This document shows positions 1 through 9,350 of a DNA stretch of 9,467 nucleotides, piece after piece (position 1 is the first letter of the stretch; each line of letters begins with the position of its first letter). Origin of the DNA: DRGV01 sp018903055 [NCBI: bacterium] (lineage in GTDB: Bacteria > UBP18 > UBA7526); NCBI GenBank assembly GCA_018903055.1, contig JAHIPW010000120.1, positions 1-9,467 of the forward strand, written 5' to 3'. Both the position numbers and the translations under genes were made by a program. The notes beneath the pieces are model-generated. The model was not told the origin of the DNA. It searched no databases and saw nothing but the letters and a program-made list of their open reading frames with translations.

Positions 1-1
1 A

Positions 2-316
2 GATGCTTCAATATTACAAAACAGAATATTATTCCCTTATCTCGGGTTAAGCACTGAGAATATTAAAGATAAAAGGTATCTTAATTATTTCCCGGGCAAC
101 CCAGTTGGATTAGCACAGATGAAAGAATTAGTTGATAGGGGCAACAAATACCAGTTTGCTGTTTCATTAGCCGCAGTTGATTTTAATGAGCTAAAAGCGG
201 TAGCTGATAAAGGTATAGAAGATCCAGAAATAGTAATGCCGCAAAAGTCAACATATTTCTGGCCGAAACTATTGAGTGGGATTATATTGTATAAGTTTGA
301 AAGGAAGGTGCTTTAA
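2..316 (+). CDS. DUF1015 family protein, C-terminal part (5' end outside window)
   Basis: The frame is open from the left edge to a TAA at 314-316, so only about the last 104 residues are visible. The ending VMPQKSTYFWPKLLSG followed by IILY is the hallmark C-terminus of the DUF1015 family (COG4198), in which an MPxKSTYFxPK motif closes the protein. An upstream stretch with an FPGN segment and a GNKYQFAVSL strand also fits. The biochemical role of DUF1015 proteins is not established. In many anaerobes the gene sits beside serC/serA, so a link to serine metabolism is inferred from context. Here it is followed after one base by a phosphoglycerate dehydrogenase-like gene, whose Shine-Dalgarno (AAGGAAGGTG, 301-310) lies inside this gene's last codons. 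The two were therefore probably co-transcribed and translationally coupled. Confidence 0.82.
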   Translation, partial: DASILQNRILFPYLGLSTENIKDKRYLNYFPGNPVGLAQMKELVDRGNKYQFAVSLAAVDFNELKAVADKGIEDPEIVMPQKSTYFWPKLLSGIILYKFERKVL

Positions 317-317
317 A

Positions 318-926
318 ATGAAAATACTAATCGCTGATGCATTTTCAAAAAATCTGCCAGATAAGTTAAAACCTTTTGGAAAAGTGACCGAAAACCTAAA
401 CGATTTACCAGAGGCTGACATTGTCCTAATAAGAAGTAAAACAGAAGCAAATAAAGAGTATATAGACAGAGCTGAAAACTTAAAAATGATTATCAGGGGC
501 GGAGTCGGGATTGATAATATTGACGTTGATTATTGTAAACAAAAAGGTATTATTGTCAAAAACACACCTAGCGCATCGTCAGTGGCAGTTGCCGAGCTGG
601 TATTTGCCCATTTATTATCTTTAAAGAGGCATATTGTAAGAGCACATACTACTACTAAAGCAAAAGGCTGGGAGAAGAAAAAGCTAAAGGGAACCGAGCT
701 TTATAAGAAAACTTTTGGTCTTATTGGCCTGGGCAGGATTGGCAGAGAAGTTGCCAAACGGGTCAGGGCATTTGGTATGGAAGTTATGGCATATGATCCT
801 TATGTGAAGGAATCTGATCTTGCTGAGATGGTAAGTTTTGATGAACTGTTAGCTGAATCTGATATTATATCATTACATATTCCAACTACCGAATATTGGA
901 TATTCGTATCACTACATTTTGCCTGA
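318..926 (+). pseudogene. D-3-phosphoglycerate dehydrogenase-like gene, interrupted: 5' fragment
   Basis: This is the N-terminal part of a D-isomer-specific 2-hydroxyacid dehydrogenase of the short phosphoglycerate dehydrogenase type. I chose the ATG at 318 over the ATG at 276 because it follows AAGGAAGGTG at good spacing and yields the family N-terminus MKILIADAF. Visible landmarks are the substrate-domain strand RGGVGIDNID (60-69), KNTPSASSVAVAELV (81-95) and the NAD-binding glycine motif GLGRIG (137-142). Family similarity runs to HIPTT (codon 191, base 890). The next 11 codons (EYWIFVSLHFA) are unrelated and end in TGA at 924. A full family member has about 305-330 residues. The catalytic Arg, Glu and His all lie in the missing half, so this fragment cannot be an active dehydrogenase. 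The missing half is found at 3537-3844. The intact gene would have followed DUF1015 as a serine-related pair. Confidence 0.88.
890..906. repeat. 17-bp palindrome at the left junction of the inserted segment
   Basis: CGAATATTGGATATTCG has perfect 7-bp arms around a 3-base centre. It sits exactly where similarity to the dehydrogenase stops. A palindrome close to an insertion boundary recalls the subterminal hairpins of IS200/IS605-type elements, but no transposase gene is present here and the match may be coincidental. Confidence 0.4.
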
Positions 927-1075
927 AAACAGCATTTTTTGGTATTTTATCGTCGGGAACCTATTTTTGTTCGCCTTTCAACTGTCAAACTTGAGTCTTT
1001 AAAATGTTGGCTTTAAAAATGTTGAGTATCCTTGTTTCAACCCTTCTTTAGTCCCAAAATACGGGGGTTTGATCG

Positions 1076-2245
1076 TTATTTTATTGCTCTCACCCTGATT
1101 ATATTCTCAATGGCTGCTATTTTTTCTATAGTTTTTTCGGTAACTTCTCTCGCAATGTCTACAATATTATAAGCAATATCACCCTTACTTTTATTAATCA
1201 TTCCAATAATATTCAGATTGGCTTTGCTGAAGACGGTAGATAACTGTGCTACCATTCCTGGAATGTTTTTATTAACAATGGTTAGGCGGCTGGTATCAGG
1301 GTTTCTCTCCAGTGAGCAGGCAGGGAAATTAACGGAATTAGTGATATTGCCATGTTCCAAAAAGTCTCTTATCTGGTTTACCACCATGCTGGCGCAATTA
1401 TCTTCTGCTTCTTCTGTGGAGGCACCGAGGTGCGGAATGCAAATAACTTTGTCCATATGTAGTAATTCATCATCCGGAAAATCTGTCACATAACTAGCGA
1501 CTATACCGTCAGCGATAGCTTTCTTAAGGTCTTCGCTATTAACAATGCCGTTTCGTGAAAAATTGAAAATGCGTACCCCCTTCTTCATCTGGGAAAATTT
1601 CTCCGCATCAAGCATGCCTTTGGTTTTATCATTAAGCGGCACGTGAATAGTGATGTAGTCGCTAGTGGCAATTAAGCGGTCCATACCTATGGCGCTTTTT
1701 ACTTCATTGGAAAGTTTCCAGGCGCTCTCCACGGAAATAAATGGGTCATATCCTTCTACCTCCATACCGAGAGACACCGCATCGTTAGCCACCATTATCC
1801 CTATAGTCCCTAATCCAATCACACCCAATTTTTTATTTTTTATTTCAAATCCGGCAAATTGTCCCTTGTTTTTTTCAACCAGCGCCGGCACTTCCGCTCC
1901 TTTACCTTTTAATGTTTTACAATATTCAATACCCGCAGGCAGATTTCTTGCGGAAAGTATCATTGAGGCAATCACTAATTCTTTCACTGCATTGGCATTC
2001 GCCTCCGGAGTATTAAAAACCACAACACCTCTGGCTGAGCATTTATCTACAGGAATGTTATTGACCCCAGTTCCTGCCCGTCCGACCGCTTGCAATGTTT
2101 CTGGAATCTCCATCTGTAGCATATCGGCACTTCTTACCAGAATCGCATCCGGATGCGTGATTTCAGCGCTTATCTCGTATTGGTCCAGAGGAAATTTTGA
2201 CAATCCTATCGGTGAAATTTTGTTCAGTGTTTTTATTTTGTACAT
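1076..2245 (-). CDS. serA: D-3-phosphoglycerate dehydrogenase with C-terminal ACT domain
   Basis: This enzyme oxidises 3-phosphoglycerate to 3-phosphohydroxypyruvate with NAD+, the first committed step of serine synthesis, in the cytosol. The 389-residue protein has a split substrate-binding domain (about 1-95 and 280-305) and a nucleotide-binding domain with GLGTIG at 144-149. The catalytic residues are R231 (in FNFSRNG), E260 (in FPDDE) and H272 (in PHLGAS). A C-terminal ACT domain spans about 318-389 (NIPGMVAQLSTVF...NIIGMINKSKGDIAYNIVD). ACT domains in this family bind serine or other amino acids for feedback control, so allosteric inhibition is likely but inferred. The ATG at 2245 follows a GGGAG ribosome binding site. 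The gene lies 33 bp downstream of serC on the same strand and is co-transcribed with it. Length and active site are complete, so it should be functional and could cover for the split dehydrogenase around it. Confidence 0.95.
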   Translation of the reverse strand: MYKIKTLNKISPIGLSKFPLDQYEISAEITHPDAILVRSADMLQMEIPETLQAVGRAGTGVNNIPVDKCSARGVVVFNTPEANANAVKELVIASMILSARNLPAGIEYCKTLKGKGAEVPALVEKNKGQFAGFEIKNKKLGVIGLGTIGIMVANDAVSLGMEVEGYDPFISVESAWKLSNEVKSAIGMDRLIATSDYITIHVPLNDKTKGMLDAEKFSQMKKGVRIFNFSRNGIVNSEDLKKAIADGIVASYVTDFPDDELLHMDKVICIPHLGASTEEAEDNCASMVVNQIRDFLEHGNITNSVNFPACSLERNPDTSRLTIVNKNIPGMVAQLSTVFSKANLNIIGMINKSKGDIAYNIVDIAREVTEKTIEKIAAIENIIRVRAIK

Positions 2246-2278
2246 AGCCGACTCCCTTTAAAATTAATCACGCGGATT

Positions 2279-3367
2279 TTAAACTTTATTTTTTAATTCA
2301 AAATCCTGCATAAATTGAACCAACTTCTTCACTCCTTCTGGCGGCATTGCGTTGTAAATACTTGCTCTGCAACCGCCGACGCTGCGATGTCCTTTAAGAG
2401 TAACCAATCCTATTTTCTTAGCTTCATTCAGGAATTGATCAGTCAACTCATCTGTCGGCAAAGTGAAAGGTATATTCATAAAAGAACGGAACTTGGGATT
2501 GGTGACCGGCGCTTTATAGAGTTTTGATTCATCTATAGTTTTGTAAAGCATCTCCGCTTTGGCTTTGTTACGCTCTGCAATGGCTTTTACTCCACCCTCT
2601 GCTTTTACCCACTCAAAAACAAGCTTGGAAATATAAATGGCATAGCACGGTGGAGTGTTATATAGGGAAGTATTTTCGGCATGTATTTTATAATCAAGCA
2701 TGGTGGGAGTAATTGGCAAGGCATTTCCTACTAAATCTTTTTTCACTATGACTACCGTGACACCGGCTGGTCCAATATTTTTCTGCGCCCCGGCATAAAT
2801 AAGACCGAACTTAGTTACCTTATACTCTTCACCTAAAATGTTAGAAGACATATCCGCCACCAGCGGCACCTCACCAGTACTGGGCAGTTCCCTAATTGTC
2901 GTCCCTTCAATAGTATTGTTAGTCGTGATGTGGAAATAATCAGCATCTTGGGAGAACTTGGATTCATCCCATTTGGGAATTTCCGCAAAATTCTTATCTT
3001 CGGAAGAAGCTACCACATTTACCGTGCCATACTTCTTGGCTTCGGATATGGCTTTCTTCGCCCAGCTACCGGTATTGATATAGTCGGCCTTCTTGGATTT
3101 ACGAAAAAGATTAAGCGGCACCATGGCAAACTGCAGCGACGCCCCACCCTGTAAGAATAAGACATAATAAGTATCAGGAATATTCATAATTTCGCGTAAC
3201 GTCATTTCAGCACTCTGGATAATTTCTTCAAACTGTTTGGAGCGGTGGCTCATCTCCATCACACTCATGCCACTGCCTTTATAATCCAGCATCTCTTCGG
3301 CTGCCTTTTTTAGTACCGGCTCGGGCAACATTGCCGGTCCTGCTGAAAAATTAAATACTCTTGCCAT
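2279..3367 (-). CDS. serC: Phosphoserine aminotransferase
   Basis: This is a PLP-dependent class V aminotransferase. It converts 3-phosphohydroxypyruvate and glutamate to O-phosphoserine and 2-oxoglutarate, the second step of serine synthesis, and often also serves pyridoxal phosphate synthesis. The 362-residue length is normal for SerC. Diagnostic features are the N-terminus RVFNFSAGPAMLP, the GSGMSVMEMSHRS block (31-43), FLQGGASLQFAMVPLNL (71-87), the TNNTIEGT segment (149-156), VADMSSNI (170-177) and the PLP-binding lysine K196 in AGAQKNIGPAG. The ATG at 3367 is preceded by an excellent AAGGAGGT (3376-3383) at 8-base spacing. It is the first gene of the serC-serA operon. Its upstream leader and promoter lie at 3368-3535. 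No phosphoserine phosphatase gene is present in the window. Confidence 0.96.
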   Translation of the reverse strand: MARVFNFSAGPAMLPEPVLKKAAEEMLDYKGSGMSVMEMSHRSKQFEEIIQSAEMTLREIMNIPDTYYVLFLQGGASLQFAMVPLNLFRKSKKADYINTGSWAKKAISEAKKYGTVNVVASSEDKNFAEIPKWDESKFSQDADYFHITTNNTIEGTTIRELPSTGEVPLVADMSSNILGEEYKVTKFGLIYAGAQKNIGPAGVTVVIVKKDLVGNALPITPTMLDYKIHAENTSLYNTPPCYAIYISKLVFEWVKAEGGVKAIAERNKAKAEMLYKTIDESKLYKAPVTNPKFRSFMNIPFTLPTDELTDQFLNEAKKIGLVTLKGHRSVGGCRASIYNAMPPEGVKKLVQFMQDFELKNKV

Positions 3368-3476
3368 TATTGTTTACCTCCTTATTTAAACTGATAAGTA
3401 AACCAACGGGGATTTTGAGAATTAGTGAAAGTGAGATAGATTTTTCACTCACCAGATTTTTATAACCTCTGGTCAA
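3351..3476 (-). CDS. Possible 41-residue leader peptide overlapping the serC start
   Basis: In the serC leader a second Shine-Dalgarno, AAAGGAGG (3483-3490), stands six bases before a TTG at 3474-3476. From there a frame runs 41 codons and stops (TAA, 3351-3353) just inside serC, out of frame with it. The peptide reads MTRGYKNLVSEKSISLSL (with TTG as Met) and continues to KEVNNNGKSI. It contains six serines, four of them within residues 10-17. A serine-rich peptide ahead of a serine operon would fit ribosome-mediated attenuation or translational coupling, but this is inference. I recognise no homologue, and a chance open frame behind a spurious ribosome binding site is possible. Confidence 0.3.
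   Translation of the reverse strand: MTRGYKNLVSEKSISLSLILKIPVGLLISLNKEVNNNGKSI
3424..3473 (-). promoter_or_regulatory. serC leader: overlapping, mutually exclusive hairpins
   Basis: Read on the minus strand, ACCAGA (3468-3473) pairs perfectly with TCTGGT (3451-3456). Just downstream, GTGAG (3448-3452) can pair with CTCAC (3431-3435). AGTGAAA (3443-3449) can instead pair with TTTCACT (3424-3430). The last two pairings share bases and exclude each other, as in attenuators. No U-run follows, so a classical intrinsic terminator is not formed. Any control would have to act on translation or work by another route. The functional reading is inference. Confidence 0.3.
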
Positions 3477-3506
3477 ACTTAACCTCCTTTCGTTTACAAT
3501 GGTATT

Positions 3507-3535
3507 ATTATAATACAAAACAAAATAATTGTCAA
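3507..3535 (-). promoter_or_regulatory. Consensus sigma-70-type promoter of serC-serA
   Basis: On the minus strand a perfect TTGACA (3530-3535) and a perfect TATAAT (3507-3512) are separated by exactly 17 bases (3513-3529). Transcription should start near 3500, giving a leader of about 133 nt before serC. The -35 box ends only about one base inside the inserted segment, so the operon was moved with its complete promoter but almost nothing upstream of it. Confidence 0.85.
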
Positions 3536-3536
3536 T

Positions 3537-3844
3537 AGTTCGAATGAGAATATTATCAATAAAGATACCATCGCTAAAATGAAAAATGGGGTTATAATTA
3601 TTAACACTGCCCGAGGCTCAATAATAGATGAAGATGCATTGTATGAGGCTTTACAGTCTGGCAAGGTTAAAGCAGCAGCAATTGATGTTTAAAAAATGAA
3701 CCTCCAGAAGGAAGTAAATTGTTAGAAGCGGATAATGTACTGTTGACGCCCCATCTGGGAGCAAGCACTCATGAAAACATGGAAAGGATCGAAGAGATTA
3801 TAGTTGAACAGATTGGAGAATTTTTGGCAAGTAAGCCCCGTTAG
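3537..3844 (+). pseudogene. D-3-phosphoglycerate dehydrogenase-like gene, interrupted: 3' fragment with frameshift
   Basis: This is the second half of the gene that begins at 318. The frame starting near 3537 reads SSNENIINKDTIAKMKNG, then VIIINTARGSIIDEDALYEAL, to AAAIDV, where a TAA (3690-3692) interrupts it. Shifting by one base restores KNEPPEGSKLLEADNVLL, TPHLGASTHENMERIEEII, and an ending FLASKPR with TAG at 3842. The family expects V-F-K-N-E-P here, so one base is missing from the T/A run at 3688-3696. The catalytic Arg (NTARG), Glu (NEPP) and His (PHLG) are all present. There is no start codon with a ribosome binding site. The C-terminus is probably shortened as well: the final codons CCC CGT TAG belong to the left arm of an inverted-repeat element (3836-3849), where homologues continue with a few more residues. 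Sequence is otherwise well preserved, so the disruption looks fairly recent. Confidence 0.88.
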
Positions 3845-3943
3845 ACTCTCAAATATCGTTCTGTAGTTTTTCCAATAGTTTTGATACCGACTCTAAATAG
3901 ATTAGTTATTCTCACATGTTGGTAGATTAGAGTCTAAACGGGG
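3836..3943. repeat. 108-bp MITE-like element with 14/15-bp terminal inverted repeats
   Basis: The left arm CCCCGTTAGACTCT (3836-3849) is the reverse complement of the right arm AGAGTCTAAACGGGG (3929-3943), apart from one missing T. The flanks show TAAG before and TAAAG after, a possible imperfect target duplication. The element carries no gene. Its left arm supplies the last codons and stop of the truncated dehydrogenase, and its right arm supplies the GGGG that serves as the only Shine-Dalgarno-like sequence of the next gene. A weak TTGATA-17-AGTTAT promoter candidate (3881-3909) lies inside. As an alternative, it could be a large transcribed hairpin acting as a gene boundary. Confidence 0.5.
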
Positions 3944-3949
3944 TAAAGA

Positions 3950-4894
3950 ATGATTCATTTCCTAATTATACTCAAGAATTATATTGTTGAACTACTGCCC
4001 GTCTTAGCCATTGGATTCTTCTTAAGCGGCATCATTCATGAATTCCTTCCCACCGCCTGGGTGGAGAGGCACCTGGGAGGAAGAGGGATAAGACCCATTA
4101 TTTATGCCACTATTTCCGGAGCACTTCTTCCTCTATGTTGCTTTGGTGCCCTACCGGTGGCCGTTAGTTTCTACAAAAAAGGGGCACGTCTTGGGCCAGT
4201 TTTAGCCTTCCTTGTCGCTACTCCCGCTACCTCAGCCACCGCCTTTTTGGTAACCTATCGTCTCTTAGGGTTAAACTTCACCCTTTTCTTATGTCTTTCT
4301 GTTATTCTAATCGGTTTAACCCTTGGCCTCATGGGAAATCTCTTTAGACTCTCTCCTGCTCCTCATTCCCTCCATAGAGAAGATCCGGTCTGTGGAACCC
4401 ACCATCCCGGCTCCTCTCATTGCCGGGAAACCTTTGGAAAAGAGCCTCAGAAGTATGTGGGGGAGAGTAGACATAGAAAAGGTATCAGAGAAAGGATAAG
4501 ATCTGTCTTTAAATTTGGCTTCTGGGACCTATTAAAAGAGATCGGTCCAGAGTTAGCCCTGGGTTTAGTCTTAGCGGCTCTCATCATGGTTGTCACTCCC
4601 GTGGGAAGGCTGATTGAGAATTACTTAAGCGGAGGATTCGGTTATCTCTTTGCCCTTCCCTTTGGATTGGCCATATACATCTGCTCCACAGCGAGCGTTC
4701 CCTTAGTTCATGCTTTCTTAACCCAGGGGATGAATATTGGAGCAGGATTGGTCCTTTTAATTGTGGGACCGGTCACCAGTTTTGGTACTATCTTGGTTGT
4801 TAAAAAAGAGTTTGGCACAAGAATCCTATTCCTCTATCTGCTCGTTATCTGTGCCTTATCATTAATCCTGGGATATGGGTTCTCTAAAATGTAA
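3950..4894 (+). CDS. COG0701-family permease (putative heavy-metal/metalloid efflux)
   Basis: This is a 314-residue polytopic inner-membrane protein of the ArsP_1/COG0701 permease family (the group that includes SO_0444-type Cu/Zn exporters). It has about eight hydrophobic segments in two halves. Family-type motifs are LLPLCCFGALPVAVSFYKKG (59-78) with a cysteine pair C63-C64, FLVATPATS (87-95) in the first half, and ICSTASVPL (244-252) and GPVTSFGT (273-280) in the second. The central cytosolic loop (about 137-185) holds a metal-ligand-rich cluster, VCGTHHPGSSHC (147-158), plus further histidines. This suggests binding of a soft metal or metalloid. The substrate is not proven; arsenic is suggested by the adjacent arsR and acr3, while the loop would also fit Cu or Zn. 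The ATG at 3950 has only GGGG (3940-3943) as ribosome binding site. It lies 151 bp before arsR with arsR's own promoter in between, so it need not be in the same operon. Confidence 0.82.
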   Translation: MIHFLIILKNYIVELLPVLAIGFFLSGIIHEFLPTAWVERHLGGRGIRPIIYATISGALLPLCCFGALPVAVSFYKKGARLGPVLAFLVATPATSATAFLVTYRLLGLNFTLFLCLSVILIGLTLGLMGNLFRLSPAPHSLHREDPVCGTHHPGSSHCRETFGKEPQKYVGESRHRKGIRERIRSVFKFGFWDLLKEIGPELALGLVLAALIMVVTPVGRLIENYLSGGFGYLFALPFGLAIYICSTASVPLVHAFLTQGMNIGAGLVLLIVGPVTSFGTILVVKKEFGTRILFLYLLVICALSLILGYGFSKM

Positions 4895-5502: not shown

Positions 5503-6684
5503 ATGGCTAATGAAGAAAGAAAACTTAATGTATTCGAGAAATATCTTACTTTCTGGGTTCTGTTATGTATTGCCGTCGGCATTATTATTGGTAAAGTTGC
5601 ACCAAATATGGCGAAATTTCTGGATGGACTGGCAATTTATATTAAGGAAGCGCCGGTAGTTTCTATCCCCATAGCGGTCTGTTTATTTTTTATGATGTAT
5701 CCCATTATGATTAAGATAGATTTTGCCGAGGTACTTAAAGCCGGGAAGTCTCCCAAGCCAGTAGGATTAACTTTATTTGCCAACTGGGCTGTTAAGCCAT
5801 TTACTATGTACGCTATCTCTCTTTTCTTTCTCGGGTTTCTTTTCAAGAAATTTATTGGAGCCAACGCAGTTGATTATGTCAAACTACCACCCGGTGCTAC
5901 TGATTGGATAGTGGGAGCGGTTCATGGTGCGGGCACTGTTGTTAGGCATAACGGATTAAAAATGCTTGAGATTCCACTTTGGAGGAGTTATCTTGCCGGA
6001 TGTATTCTTCTGGGGATTGCCCCCTGCACGGCAATGGTTCTCGTCTGGGGTTTTCTGGCAAAAGGTAATGACGGACATACCCTTATTATGGTAGCGATAA
6101 ATTCTCTAACCATGCTCTTTTTCTATGGACCTCTTGGTGGGTTTCTACTTGGTATAGGCAGGTTACCTGTTCCCTGGCAGGCATTATTACTTTCTATTAG
6201 TATCTATGTCGCACTGCCTCTTGTTGCCGGATATTTTTCAAGAAAATGGATAATAAAGATAAAAGGTGAAGGATGGTTCAAGGAGAAATTTTTACATTTA
6301 CTTACCCCGGTATCGATTATTGCGCTCTTATTTACTCTTGTTTTACTCTTTTCATTTAAAGGCAACATAATTTTAACCAAACCCCTCACTATCCTATGGA
6401 TAGCGATACCGCTTTTCATTCAGACGAATCTTATATTCTGGCTCACTTATGGACTGGCAAGAATTCTTAAACTCCAGTATGAAGATGCCGCACCCTCTGC
6501 TATGATCGGGGCCAGCAATCATTTTGAGGTAGCCATTGCTACCGCCACGATGTTGTTTGGACTGTCTTCCGGAGCAGCCCTGGCAACAGTTGTGGGAGTG
6601 CTCATTGAAGTTCCCGTGATGTTAATGCTGGTGAAGATATGTCTGAGAACACACAGATGGTTTGAGGTAAGAAAAGCTATTTAA
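5503..6684 (+). CDS. acr3: Acr3-type arsenite efflux permease
   Basis: This 393-residue inner-membrane carrier has ten predicted membrane segments and exports arsenite, As(III), using the proton-motive force. Family landmarks are [19 protein letters not shown] (56-74), NWAVKPF (94-100), [20 protein letters not shown] (171-190) with the essential cysteine C175, [19 protein letters not shown] (199-217), [13 protein letters not shown] (336-348) and VLIEVPVML (366-374) with conserved E369. Between segments 3 and 4 lies a ~40-residue stretch (118-157) present in one bacterial Acr3 subgroup. The ATG at 5503 has a modest AAAGAG upstream; a GTG at 5482 would add seven residues and has no ribosome binding site. 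The gene follows arsR in the same direction and ends before a strong terminator. No arsenate reductase gene (arsC) is visible, so arsenite itself, or arsenate reduced elsewhere, would be the substrate source. Confidence 0.96.
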
Positions 6685-6787
6685 TGAATCATCAGGGAAA
6701 TCGCCTACATTATGACTTTAACCTTAAATATTTTGTAAATCCAATCTAACGGCGCACTATCACTCTTCGCCACTAAAGAATGAATTG

Positions 6788-6819
6788 AAGCAGGAGCCTT
6801 AAAAGGCTCCTGCTTTTTT
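6788..6819 (+). terminator. Strong intrinsic terminator after the ars genes
   Basis: AAGCAGGAGCCTT (6788-6800) pairs perfectly with AAGGCTCCTGCTT (6803-6815), and a run of six T (6814-6819) follows. It lies about 100 bp after the acr3 stop. No gene is seen in 6685-6787. Confidence 0.93.
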
Positions 6820-6875
6820 GTTCGCGTTGTTTCGTGTTCTTTTCTTTTTGCGTCTTTAAGTTAAATTTTGCCTGT

Positions 6876-6894
6876 CCCGAGCGAAGTCGAGGGG
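6876..6894. repeat. CCCGAGCGAAGTCGAGGGG interspersed-repeat-like motif
   Basis: This imperfectly palindromic GC-rich motif stands out from AT-rich surroundings. Near-identical sequences (the complement reads CCCCTCGACTTCGCTCGGG) are, to my knowledge, common as intergenic repeats in many unrelated bacterial genomes. Only one copy lies in this window, so its repeat nature here is inferred. Confidence 0.35.
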
Positions 6895-6912
6895 CGCTTT
6901 TGCGGTTGCAGT

Positions 6913-6995
6913 TTGCAATTTTCCCCAAAATATGCTAAATAAAAAGCCCTTTTCGTCGGAAAAGATAATTTTTTGAGTTTTTTCAGAAAAAGACT
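6913..6995 (+). repeat. Dispersed repeat, copy A (upstream of the toxin-antitoxin promoter)
   Basis: Bases 6924-6961 are identical over 38 bp to 9262-9299 (copy B). The family extends left to TTGCAATT (6913-6920) and right through a T-rich stretch, a short hairpin and AAAAAGACT. Copy A ends exactly at the -35 box of the next gene. A shorter copy C is at 7618-7644. All three face the same way. No coding potential is evident. Confidence 0.8.
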
Positions 6996-7022
6996 TGACA
7001 AGGGAATAAAATGTGATATAAT
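6995..7022 (+). promoter_or_regulatory. Promoter of the AbrB/RelE module
   Basis: TTGACA (6995-7000), a 16-base spacer, then TATAAT (7017-7022): near-perfect consensus. The expected start near 7029 gives a ~40-nt leader before the antitoxin gene. Confidence 0.83.
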
Positions 7023-7030
7023 AATATTAG

Positions 7031-7051
7031 AAATTCAGAAATTACGAATTT
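7031..7051. promoter_or_regulatory. Inverted repeat, candidate autoregulatory operator
   Basis: AAATTC (7031-7036) and GAATTT (7046-7051) form perfect 6-bp arms just downstream of the predicted transcription start. Toxin-antitoxin operons are usually repressed by the antitoxin binding such a site. The assignment is inference; in AT-rich DNA a 6-bp palindrome can arise by chance. Confidence 0.35.
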
Positions 7052-7069
7052 TATAAAGGAGGTTAAAAA

Positions 7070-7342
7070 ATGACTGTCCTGACTCTGAGAAAGAATGCCC
7101 AGCTGACTTTACCAAAAAGGGTAAGAGAAGCCTTGAATCTCCATGAGGGAGATCTTATAGAGATGAAGGTCAAAGACAAGAAAGTTATCCTGACGCCCCA
7201 GATGACCATCGATTCTGAACAGGCCTGGTTCTGGGTTAAAGAATGGCAGAAGAAGGAAGCAAGGGCTGAAGCAGATATCAAGGCGGGCCGGGTAAAAAAA
7301 TTCTCTTCGGCTAAAGAATTGATGAAAGAACTGGAGAAATGA
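7070..7342 (+). CDS. AbrB/SpoVT-fold antitoxin
   Basis: This 90-residue protein has an N-terminal swapped-hairpin AbrB/SpoVT/MazE-type DNA-binding domain. TLRKNAQLTLPKRVREALNL (5-24) and HEGDLIEMKVKDKKVILTP (25-43) match the pattern of that fold (R/K...QLTLPKxVRExLxLxEGDxI). The C-terminal half (44-90), rich in charged residues (EWQKKEARAEADIKAGRVKK), is likely the toxin-wrapping tail. The ATG at 7070 follows AAAGGAGG (7055-7062) at 7 bases. Its stop overlaps the toxin start in ATGA (7339-7342), the usual layout for coupled antitoxin-toxin translation. It should neutralise the toxin and autorepress the promoter. A stand-alone AbrB-like regulator is less likely given its partner. Confidence 0.86.
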   Translation: MTVLTLRKNAQLTLPKRVREALNLHEGDLIEMKVKDKKVILTPQMTIDSEQAWFWVKEWQKKEARAEADIKAGRVKKFSSAKELMKELEK

Positions 7343-7599
7343 ACCTCTATCGCACGGAGGAATTTGATAAGGCCCTGAAATCCCTGCCCAAGAAACTACA
7401 GGAAAAGACCGCCAAGAAACTGGAACTTTTCAAAAAGAATCCCAGACATCCTTCCCTTCGTACTAAAAAGATCAAATCCGCCAGAGGAATCTGGGAAGGC
7501 TCTATTGATAAGAAATATCGCTTTACCTTTGAAAGGGGAAAGGACACCATTATTCTGCGGGTAATCGGTCCCCATAACGAAGTGCTAAAACATCCTTAG
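7339..7599 (+). CDS. RelE/ParE-superfamily toxin
   Basis: This 86-residue basic protein starts in the ATGA overlap with the antitoxin. The RelE/ParE fold pattern is visible: an N-terminal strand and helices YRTEEFDKALKSLPKKLQEK (4-23) and AKKLELFKKNPRHPSLRTKK (25-44), the strand region GIWEGSIDKKYRFTFERG (50-67), and the closing VIGPHNEVLK (75-84). In mRNA-cleaving members the R/K residues in the strands and a late histidine are used. R61, R64 and H79 are candidates here, but I cannot assign the active site firmly. Whether it cleaves ribosome-bound mRNA like RelE or poisons gyrase like ParE cannot be told from sequence. The partner is AbrB-type rather than RelB-type, as in the prlF-yhaV pair. 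Confidence 0.86.
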   Translation: MNLYRTEEFDKALKSLPKKLQEKTAKKLELFKKNPRHPSLRTKKIKSARGIWEGSIDKKYRFTFERGKDTIILRVIGPHNEVLKHP

Positions 7600-7658: not shown

Positions 7659-9062
7659 ATGCTGATGAGTAAAAGACGAAAAGGATTGATGATCTTATTT
7701 ATCATGCTACTTTTGATGCTCTCTTTGTTAATTCCTAAGTATACCATGGTATATACAAATGGAAAATTGGTCGATCGTTCCGTGAAAAAACCCATAAAAG
7801 TGGTTGACTATTATACCGGAAAACCCATAGAGGGGGCACTCATTACTTCAGGCAATGATGTTGAACGGGCCGACGAAAATGGCATGTGTTATATGAAAAT
7901 CGAAGGGAACAAGGTAGCGGTGAGGGCTTACGGATACTTAAGGACTGAGCAGATGATCACCTCGCCTCAAGAGATAAAGTCGTTGTCTTCTACACTCAAA
8001 GCTATCTACCTTTCTTTGCGGGAAAAGGTAGCGGTAATAGATGAGCAGATGATCACTGCACCTCTAGAGATAAAGCTGGTGCCTTTTACCCCAAAAGCCC
8101 TTTACCTTTCCTTTTACGGAATAGGGGACAAAACATTGCGGGAATCTGCACTCAAGCTTATACAAGAGACCGAGCTTAATGCCCTGGTCATAGATGTGAA
8201 GGGAGACCGGGGCATGCTACCTTATAAAAGTACCATCCCCCTCGCCGCAGAAGTGGGCGCTCAAAAAATAATAACCGTAAAAGACATGAGTGGCCTGATA
8301 AAATCCTTGAAAGAAAAGGACATATATACCATCGCCCGGATCGTCGTGTTTAAAGACAATCTCCTCGCTCTGAAAAGGCCTGATTTAGCGGTAAAGACTC
8401 AGAGTGGAGAGATATGGCGTGATCGGGAAGATCTGGCGTGGGTGGATCCATTCAAAAAGGAGGTATGGGATTATAATATTAATATTGCCGTTGAAATTGC
8501 TCAATATGGGTTTGATGAGATACAGTTCGACTATGTCCGATTTCCCGATCCGTCATCCTTTCAATGTTCTATGCCCAACACGATGGAGAATAGAGTAAAG
8601 GCCATCTCTGGATTTCTCCTGGAAGCAAAAAAGAGACTTTTGCCCTACAATGTCTTTCTTTCGGCAGATATCTTCGGATACGTATGCTGGAATCTCAATG
8701 ATACCTATATTGGACAAACCCTTGAGGAACTTGCCCCCCATCTGGACTATCTATCTCCGATGCTCTATCCTTCTGGATTTCAGTATGGGATACCCGGTTA
8801 TAGAATTCCCGTTACCAACCCCTATGAAATTGTCTATCTTGCCCTTAAAAGAGCCCAAGAACGTACCAATCTCCCCGCCATTCGCTTCAGACCCTGGCTG
8901 CAAGCATTTAGAGATTATGCCTTCGATGGAAGAATCTTTGAGGAGAAAGAAATAAGAGATCAGATCAATGCTGCTGAGAAATTTGGTTCCCACGGCTGGA
9001 TGCTCTGGAACCCCCGTAACATCTACTCGGGAGATGGACTGAAAAGAGATGCCCCCCCCTAA
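7659..9062 (+). CDS. Putative glycoside hydrolase, DUF4015 (GHL13-type), membrane-anchored or secreted
   Basis: The frame opens at ATG 7638, but that codon lies inside the dispersed repeat and has no ribosome binding site. ATG 7659 (GGG eight bases upstream) or 7665 (giving MSKRRKGLMILFIMLL) is likelier. Counting from 7638, a basic N-terminus and a hydrophobic segment (17-32) form a signal peptide or anchor. A carboxypeptidase-regulatory-like beta domain follows (VVDYYTGKPIEGALIT...ADENG, 55-100). Then comes a TIM-barrel DUF4015 domain (about 151-465) with IDVKGDRG (185-192), WVDPF (268-272), FDEIQFDYVRFPD (292-304), SADIFGY (342-348), YLSPMLYPSG (371-380) and GWMLWNP (453-459). D/E residues in the FDEIQFDY segment are the probable catalytic acids. 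Substrate unknown; the family is predicted to act on extracellular polysaccharide. The region before the barrel is duplicated (see findings). The gene ends beside a run of eight C followed by CCGGGGG, a weak hairpin without a T-tail. Confidence 0.9.
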   Translation: MLMSKRRKGLMILFIMLLLMLSLLIPKYTMVYTNGKLVDRSVKKPIKVVDYYTGKPIEGALITSGNDVERADENGMCYMKIEGNKVAVRAYGYLRTEQMITSPQEIKSLSSTLKAIYLSLREKVAVIDEQMITAPLEIKLVPFTPKALYLSFYGIGDKTLRESALKLIQETELNALVIDVKGDRGMLPYKSTIPLAAEVGAQKIITVKDMSGLIKSLKEKDIYTIARIVVFKDNLLALKRPDLAVKTQSGEIWRDREDLAWVDPFKKEVWDYNINIAVEIAQYGFDEIQFDYVRFPDPSSFQCSMPNTMENRVKAISGFLLEAKKRLLPYNVFLSADIFGYVCWNLNDTYIGQTLEELAPHLDYLSPMLYPSGFQYGIPGYRIPVTNPYEIVYLALKRAQERTNLPAIRFRPWLQAFRDYAFDGRIFEEKEIRDQINAAEKFGSHGWMLWNPRNIYSGDGLKRDAPP

Positions 9063-9250: not shown

Positions 9251-9350
9251 TTGAAATATGGCCCAAAATATGCTAAATAAAAAGCCCTTTTCGTCGGAAG
9301 AGGTAATTTTCTGAGATTTCTGACTTTTTCAGAAATCTCAAAAAAAGACT
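9251..9350 (+). repeat. Dispersed repeat, copy B
   Basis: Bases 9262-9299 are identical to 6924-6961. Weaker similarity extends left (TTGAAAT, 9251) and right to AAAAAAAGACT (9340-9350). Relative to copy A it has extra bases inside the right-hand hairpin. It precedes the gene starting at 9427, as copy A precedes the toxin-antitoxin genes. The stretch 9063-9250 before it holds no gene I can recognise. Confidence 0.8.
9312..9340. repeat. 12-bp perfect hairpin within copy B
   Basis: TGAGATTTCTGA (9312-9323), loop CTTTT, TCAGAAATCTCA (9329-9340). The outer TTTT/AAAA can extend the stem. It is followed by A, not T, on the plus strand, so it is not an intrinsic terminator for plus-strand transcripts. 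Confidence 0.75.

Follow-up and report, generated by a model that had tools for sequence, protein, structure and literature searches.

Horizontal gene displacement is mostly inferred from phylogenetic trees, by which time the displaced gene has already been lost. The closest described situation is xenologous gene displacement in situ, reportedly set out along with mosaic operons by Omelchenko and co-workers in 2003, in which an acquired gene of the same function is said to supplant the resident gene at its own locus, the displaced gene reportedly being swapped within its operon. Here we describe a locus in which the intermediate is preserved. The DNA analyzed (the window) is a 9,467-nt stretch from the bacterium DRGV01 sp018903055, one entire contig (C111; JAHIPW010000120.1) of the draft genome G000, and all coordinates refer to this window unless another locus is named. 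On its forward strand lies a short resident gene of the phosphoglycerate dehydrogenase type (hereafter dh) that is cut in two; between the two parts, in reverse orientation, stand intact serC and serA genes. Unlike that kind of displacement, a two-gene unit with its own predicted promoter sits reversed inside the resident gene, whose halves are still visible; resident halves, insertion point and foreign unit can all be read. From the sequence comparisons and trees described below, we consider it quite probable that a foreign serC-serA unit was inserted into a resident, DUF1015-linked dehydrogenase gene in a real transfer. We read the case as xenologous displacement by insertion into a gene, a known kind of event of which it is a clear example.

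The split dehydrogenase gene and its insert

The 5' part of dh (318–894, forward strand) runs through 192 codons and one base into codon 193; it sits in an open reading frame of 276–926, with its ATG at 318, and matches PF00389 and PF02826. The interruption, a segment of 2,646 bp on the reverse strand, lies at 894/3541, and the gene resumes as a 3' part at 3541–3844. Both halves match PF02826 in complementary ranges (profile positions 1–102 and 106–153 of 178), and the best NCBIfam model for the 5' half is the phosphoglycerate dehydrogenase (PGDH) model TIGR01327, at a score below the model cut-off. When the halves were aligned with 14 homologues, taken from 26 dh loci (L098–L123), a single column fell between them, and all 14 homologues carry one residue there; one of these loci (L111) is two residues shorter immediately beside this column. 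Additionally, joining 318–894 to 3541 in silico leaves the reading frame open across the site. Given the one-residue column and the in-frame join, no dh sequence need have been lost, and the insert corresponds to 895–3540, with an ambiguity of 1 bp at the T of 894/3540. A preliminary description of this DNA had taken the two stretches, which face the same direction, for parts of one gene with junctions at 890 and 3537; the split and the unity of the gene are borne out by the alignment, and the edges move by a few bases. The 3' half carries a second lesion: near 3689, all 14 homologues follow one frame before the site and another after it, and dh ends (3844) in an inverted repeat (3836–3942), within its left arm. 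A gene split at codon 193 and frameshifted in its 3' half would be expected to be inactive.

The insert (895–3540, reverse strand) consists of a predicted promoter, a leader, serC, serA and a tail of ∼180 bp. The serC gene (2279–3367, reverse strand; 362 aa) encodes a phosphoserine aminotransferase that matches PF00266 and scores above the cut-offs of the NCBIfam phosphoserine transaminase models TIGR01364 and NF003764. It is followed after a 33-bp gap by the co-directional serA (1076–2245, reverse strand; 389 aa), which encodes a phosphoglycerate dehydrogenase with PF02826, PF00389 and, at the C-terminus, an ACT domain (Pfam); SerA matches solved phosphoglycerate dehydrogenases, and its best NCBIfam model is again TIGR01327. 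In other words, the PGDH profile is the best one for both the newcomer SerA and the resident dh, each scoring below the cut-off. The predicted sigma-70 promoter (3507–3535, reverse strand; TTGACA-17-TATAAT) agrees with the consensus at 12 of 12 positions, has a 17-nt spacer, starts 5 bp inside the right edge of the insert and is the one promoter assigned to both genes by consensus. The promoter scan as a whole gave a total equal to that of shuffled sequences (nine found versus a mean of 8.9), so it is the perfect match alone that stands out. An Rfam scan for an RNA leader upstream of serC gave nothing at the gathering score; its three matches (E 0.45–0.64) all lie outside the leader. Open reading frames of at least 80 aa in the segment are limited to serC, serA and two that run antisense to serA. 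The early claims of two intact genes with a promoter of their own, and of an ACT-bearing SerA, therefore hold, the promoter as a prediction.

Two origins at one locus

Homologues were sought in 386 genomes; six genomes represent the host phylum (G000 and five incomplete relatives, completeness 53–93%). Matches to SerC were found in 122 of the 386; besides the protein itself, the best come from two genomes of an unrelated family (f198), at 85% and 84% identity, and the next two stand at 68%. All four genomes of the f198 order have SerC at 84–85%, in one of them split in two pieces, and SerA is 80–81% identical at the amino acid level to the SerA of three f198 genomes. Within the host phylum, this SerC was found in G000 only (one of six genomes, the other five being incomplete). 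The trees agree with the pairwise values. The SerC and dh trees (42 and 41 rows, none removed by the length filter) were made by a quick method, and the SerA tree (11 rows) was limited to serC loci with a near-whole SerA (>330 residues) in 1.5-kb flanks; the window SerC and the window SerA each fall in a four-row clade with f198 (SH-aLRT 99 for SerC; 100/100 for SerA).

The likeness extends to gene organization. At three f198 loci (L064, L065 and L124), serC and serA have the same order and orientation as in the window, with 80–85% protein identity and block nucleotide similarity. The nucleotide similarity to two f198 loci is 72–74% and spans 1076–3386 and 1087–3383, which is to say serC-serA and little else: the match ends at the serA stop and ∼20 bp upstream of the serC start. 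The f198 pair has other genes for neighbours, and a comparison with two f198 loci of 14 kb gave no match to the flanks that the pair has in the window. Likewise, 3387–3560 has no match in the host's own genome, in five genomes of the same phylum or in four f198 genomes. Thus, the search for the same segment elsewhere located a related pair in f198 but no counterpart of the insert flanks. Relative to f198, dN is 0.10–0.11 (dS was not computable), and the codon usage of serC and serA is slightly closer to that of G000 than to that of f198.

The resident gene has other relatives. We inspected the 11 best dh homologues besides the window itself (L098–L108; 54–61% identity) together with 1.5-kb flanks. 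A DUF1015 gene lies upstream of dh on the same strand in eight of them, at a distance of 40–115 bp in seven and ∼0.7 kb in the eighth (L098), and SerC starts within ∼100 bp downstream of dh in 9 of the 11. The window dh belongs to one clade with 10 of these homologues, all except L107 (SH-aLRT 96, quick tree). Taken together, clade and neighbourhoods indicate a resident locus of the DUF1015-dh-serC type. The loci that show this arrangement (L098, L099, L101–L105 and L108) have the same order and strand as the DUF1015-dh of the window and similar gene lengths; unlike them, the window has no co-directional serC after dh, and hence none of the resident locus's own, but has the foreign pair inside dh instead.

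At the left end of the window, the DUF1015 (PF06245) protein is represented by its C-terminal 104 aa (1–316, forward strand), truncated by the contig end. This piece has no Pfam match by itself; its nucleotide sequence is 94.7% identical over 301 bases to a DUF1015 gene on another contig of the same genome (C38), whose full-length protein matches PF06245 at 3.5e-60. On C38, the initial 11 bases of dh come after this second DUF1015 gene, which adjoins NadA and MnmA, and the MnmA-NadA of C38 is 82% identical to that of G001, a genome of the same genus. The proposed place of the resident gene beside DUF1015 is thus repeated on C38 and in 8 of the 11 homologue loci. Uninterrupted DUF1015-dh loci were found in the distant homologues and in none of the five same-phylum relatives.

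SerC and SerA group with the unrelated f198 while dh groups with the DUF1015-dh-serC clade, which makes serC-serA, by its tree placements, a foreign pair inside a gene for the same step and not an inverted resident serC. The difference in origin between the two dehydrogenases that had been surmised at the outset is what the trees display.

Host linkage and alternative explanations

To the right of dh, the inverted repeat at 3836–3942 (CCCCGTTAGACTCT ... AGAGTCTAAACGGG; arms 86% complementary) has an arm core that recurs in the host family, and homology to relatives begins sharply at 3949, beside the start codon of a permease gene. From there to 6822 on the forward strand lie genes for an ArsP-type permease, an ArsR regulator and an ACR3 arsenite transporter (TIGR00832); this block is native to the host family and outside the insertion, with 87–88% nucleotide identity over its full length to G003 and G004 of the same family, and 93% to G005 over 6136–6822. 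Arms that read CCCCGTTAGA...TCTAACGGGG, or nearly so, are shared by the inverted repeats at 3836–3942 of the window, at 1406–1470 of L048, and at 2326–2405 and 5113–5193 of L058.

The main rival to our whole interpretation is an artefact of assembly or binning in which contigs of different organisms were fused. Such a fusion would account for a 9.5-kb contig that combines three phylogenetic sources, and for the sharp onset of homology at 3949; additionally, the contamination estimate of the draft genome is 2.95%, SerC and DUF1015 are undetected in the five relatives, and the bin holds two versions of DUF1015. A two-sided chimera, however, would have to leave dh and then re-enter it at the codon of departure, without the loss of any sequence; the DUF1015-dh combination on the left is seen again on C38 and in 8 of the 11 homologue loci, and the right side is joined to a family-enriched repeat and to family-native genes. 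Three points make us regard a chimera as distinctly improbable: dh picks up at the codon where it broke off, that repeat and the arsenic genes follow at its 3' end, and C38 repeats DUF1015-dh. Another explanation dispenses with foreign DNA: a DUF1015-dh-serC operon would have had its own serC, plus a second serA, inverted into dh. Since serC lies directly downstream of dh in 9 of the 11 clade loci, a local rearrangement could join the two genes, but the window SerC is 47–53% identical to the SerC of those nine loci versus 84–85% to that of f198, and the SerC and SerA trees both place the window with f198. We rejected local inversion on these trees and consider it very improbable indeed.

How did the segment enter, by exact insertion or maybe as the passenger of a transposable element? 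The second possibility bears on mechanism alone and does not conflict with a foreign origin. It would make serC-serA the cargo of a defective element mobilized in trans, with CGAAT as a 5-bp target duplication. The direct repeat CGAAT (890–894 and 3541–3545) does abut the insert on both sides, a 5-bp match with a chance of 0.0018 as estimated from random position pairs in the first 4 kb, and a short palindrome (CGAATAT/ATATTCG) marks the left edge, with the consensus promoter at the opposite, right edge. Collapsing CGAAT as a target duplication, however, would put the original dh out of frame at the site; no pair of inverted repeats links the insert ends (among the longest 25 of 91 inverted repeats, the ends also having been compared by eye), neither flank has a further copy in the host's own genome (880–1080 being one stretch without a second copy there), and the insert edges fold no better than shuffled sequences (z −0.32 and −0.59). 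No transposase is found among the insert's open reading frames of at least 80 aa, the two antisense to serA not having been searched. With no terminal inverted repeats, single-copy flanks and unremarkable folding at the edges, we rejected a transposable element as the vehicle and hold it to be unlikely. The suggestion that the pair moves as a compact cassette likewise finds no support, there being one copy, no terminal inverted repeats and flanks unmatched wherever they were searched. Ten plasmid and seven phage records match the segment, none of which covers 80% of it (best coverage 36% and 14%, respectively, among the matches listed). Carriage by a virus was considered and rejected, given the phage coverage of at most 14% among those matches and the absence of any match between the N-terminal part of dh and viral contigs; SerC does match five loci on viral contigs, at 57–59% identity. 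A loss-free, exact insertion, for which the uninterrupted site would read CGAATCGAAT, is a better fit to the reading frame than a 5-bp target duplication.

Several observations weigh against a foreign insertion into a resident gene as we have described it. The whole arrangement is known from a single short contig of a draft assembly (1.09 Mb in 191 contigs, completeness 85.3%). The window SerC is placed inside f198 and the window SerA beside it, and the insert flanks, which would mark the boundaries in the donor, lack a match where searched. The CGAAT repeat and the in-frame join point to different integration mechanisms, either of which may apply. DUF1015, with the 104-aa piece as query, is found in G000 alone among the six phylum genomes, and distant homologues therefore had to serve for reconstructing the empty site. 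What G003 and G004 lack is only the DUF1015-dh locus, since dehydrogenase matches of a weaker kind (34% identity at best) occur in both. The DUF1015 versions of C38 and the window are 5% apart, and strains may therefore be mixed in the bin. Finally, the 10-mer core of the repeat arms was counted in a host-family set that is not a random sample, many of its loci having been chosen for matching a stretch of the window or of C38. This set (163,201 bases) yielded 18 occurrences, spread over 10 of its 31 loci, against a single one in the 309,873 bases of the 78 other loci. Redundant loci, those lying within another locus or within the window, had been removed for this count, reducing the family set from 47 to 31 and the others from 80 to 78. 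The exact two-arm pattern (20–50-base spacer) appears at one place only, on C38; the recurring part is the single-arm core.

Further observations on the genome

The DUF1015 gene of C38 comes directly after a stretch (L048, 1258–1314) that matches residues 1–19 of mfd, and a stretch of contig C187 (L093, 8449–8574) matches its last 42 residues (1003–1044); mfd thus appears gutted in G000. Other, weaker mfd matches in this genome are on C29 (42% identity over residues 509–880, in a 711-aa frame) and C73 (63% over 67–107, in a 401-aa frame), and no whole mfd was found in the search of this incomplete genome. In G001, MnmA, NadA and mfd stand in a row, with mfd whole (named by TIGR00580). From this incomplete genome, it may be that DUF1015-dh itself arrived at a gutted mfd locus.

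An uninterrupted locus in Candidatus Diapherotrites archaeon AUK230 (L059, 5956–9326) has DUF1015, a class V aminotransferase and SerA adjacent to one another; its DUF1015 is 60% identical to that of C38, and its SerA is outside the window dh clade. The DUF1015 likeness hints at cross-domain transfer or at a mis-binned contig. The uncharacterized DUF1015 is thus a recurrent neighbour of serine genes, and the literature collection searched contains no paper joining DUF1015 with serine or with phosphoglycerate dehydrogenase.

The genome has two copies of the ArsP-type permease, 83% identical (window, 3950–4894; C38, L048 3577–4572); the C38 copy carries a YHS domain, and the window copy is without much of that stretch, in frame. 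Farther right, fragments of 6690–7069 match in all six phylum genomes, and a 69-bp direct repeat (88% identical) occupies 6913–6981 and 9251–9319. Two small overlapping open reading frames at 7070–7599 form a weakly supported toxin-antitoxin pair, the first with a MazE antitoxin domain (PF04014) and the second with a sub-threshold ParE-like match (PF24732). A gene for a DUF4015 protein has a 72-nt internal duplication, 78% identical, at 7946–8113.

Implications

We propose that a complete serC-serA transcription unit was acquired from the unrelated family f198, or by way of a relative of it, and that a single insertion would have placed it, reversed, within codon 193 of the resident, DUF1015-linked dh. 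The step that was interrupted would then be provided by the newcomer SerA, and the one after it by the newcomer SerC; with newcomer enzymes, presumably expressed from their own promoter, covering the lost function, the break would be survivable and could have been tolerated by selection. No further SerC turned up in G000, an incomplete genome. The resident dh would subsequently have decayed, acquiring the frameshift in its 3' half. As for the initial proposal that the operon landed in and replaced the resident gene, the foreign insertion is backed by the trees; the replacement is read from the broken frame.

By length arithmetic, the chance that a random hit falls on the ∼880-bp dh in the 1.09-Mb draft is ∼0.08%. 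The survival of the hit, rather than its aim, may explain why the unit lies in its functional analogue. A broader idea, which we offer tentatively as possible but somewhat doubtful, is complementation-licensed insertion: incoming biosynthetic units would land in genes of analogous function at a rate above chance, since only there does the newcomer repair the damage that it causes, leaving a datable, orientation-independent scar. On the same tentative footing, this poorly sampled, small-genome lineage would have acquired serine genes twice, from two unrelated sources: first DUF1015-dh, at the gutted mfd, and then serC-serA, inside dh. With resident halves, insertion point and foreign unit legible in one place, the case allows a question to be asked: do operons preferentially settle in genes whose loss they compensate?

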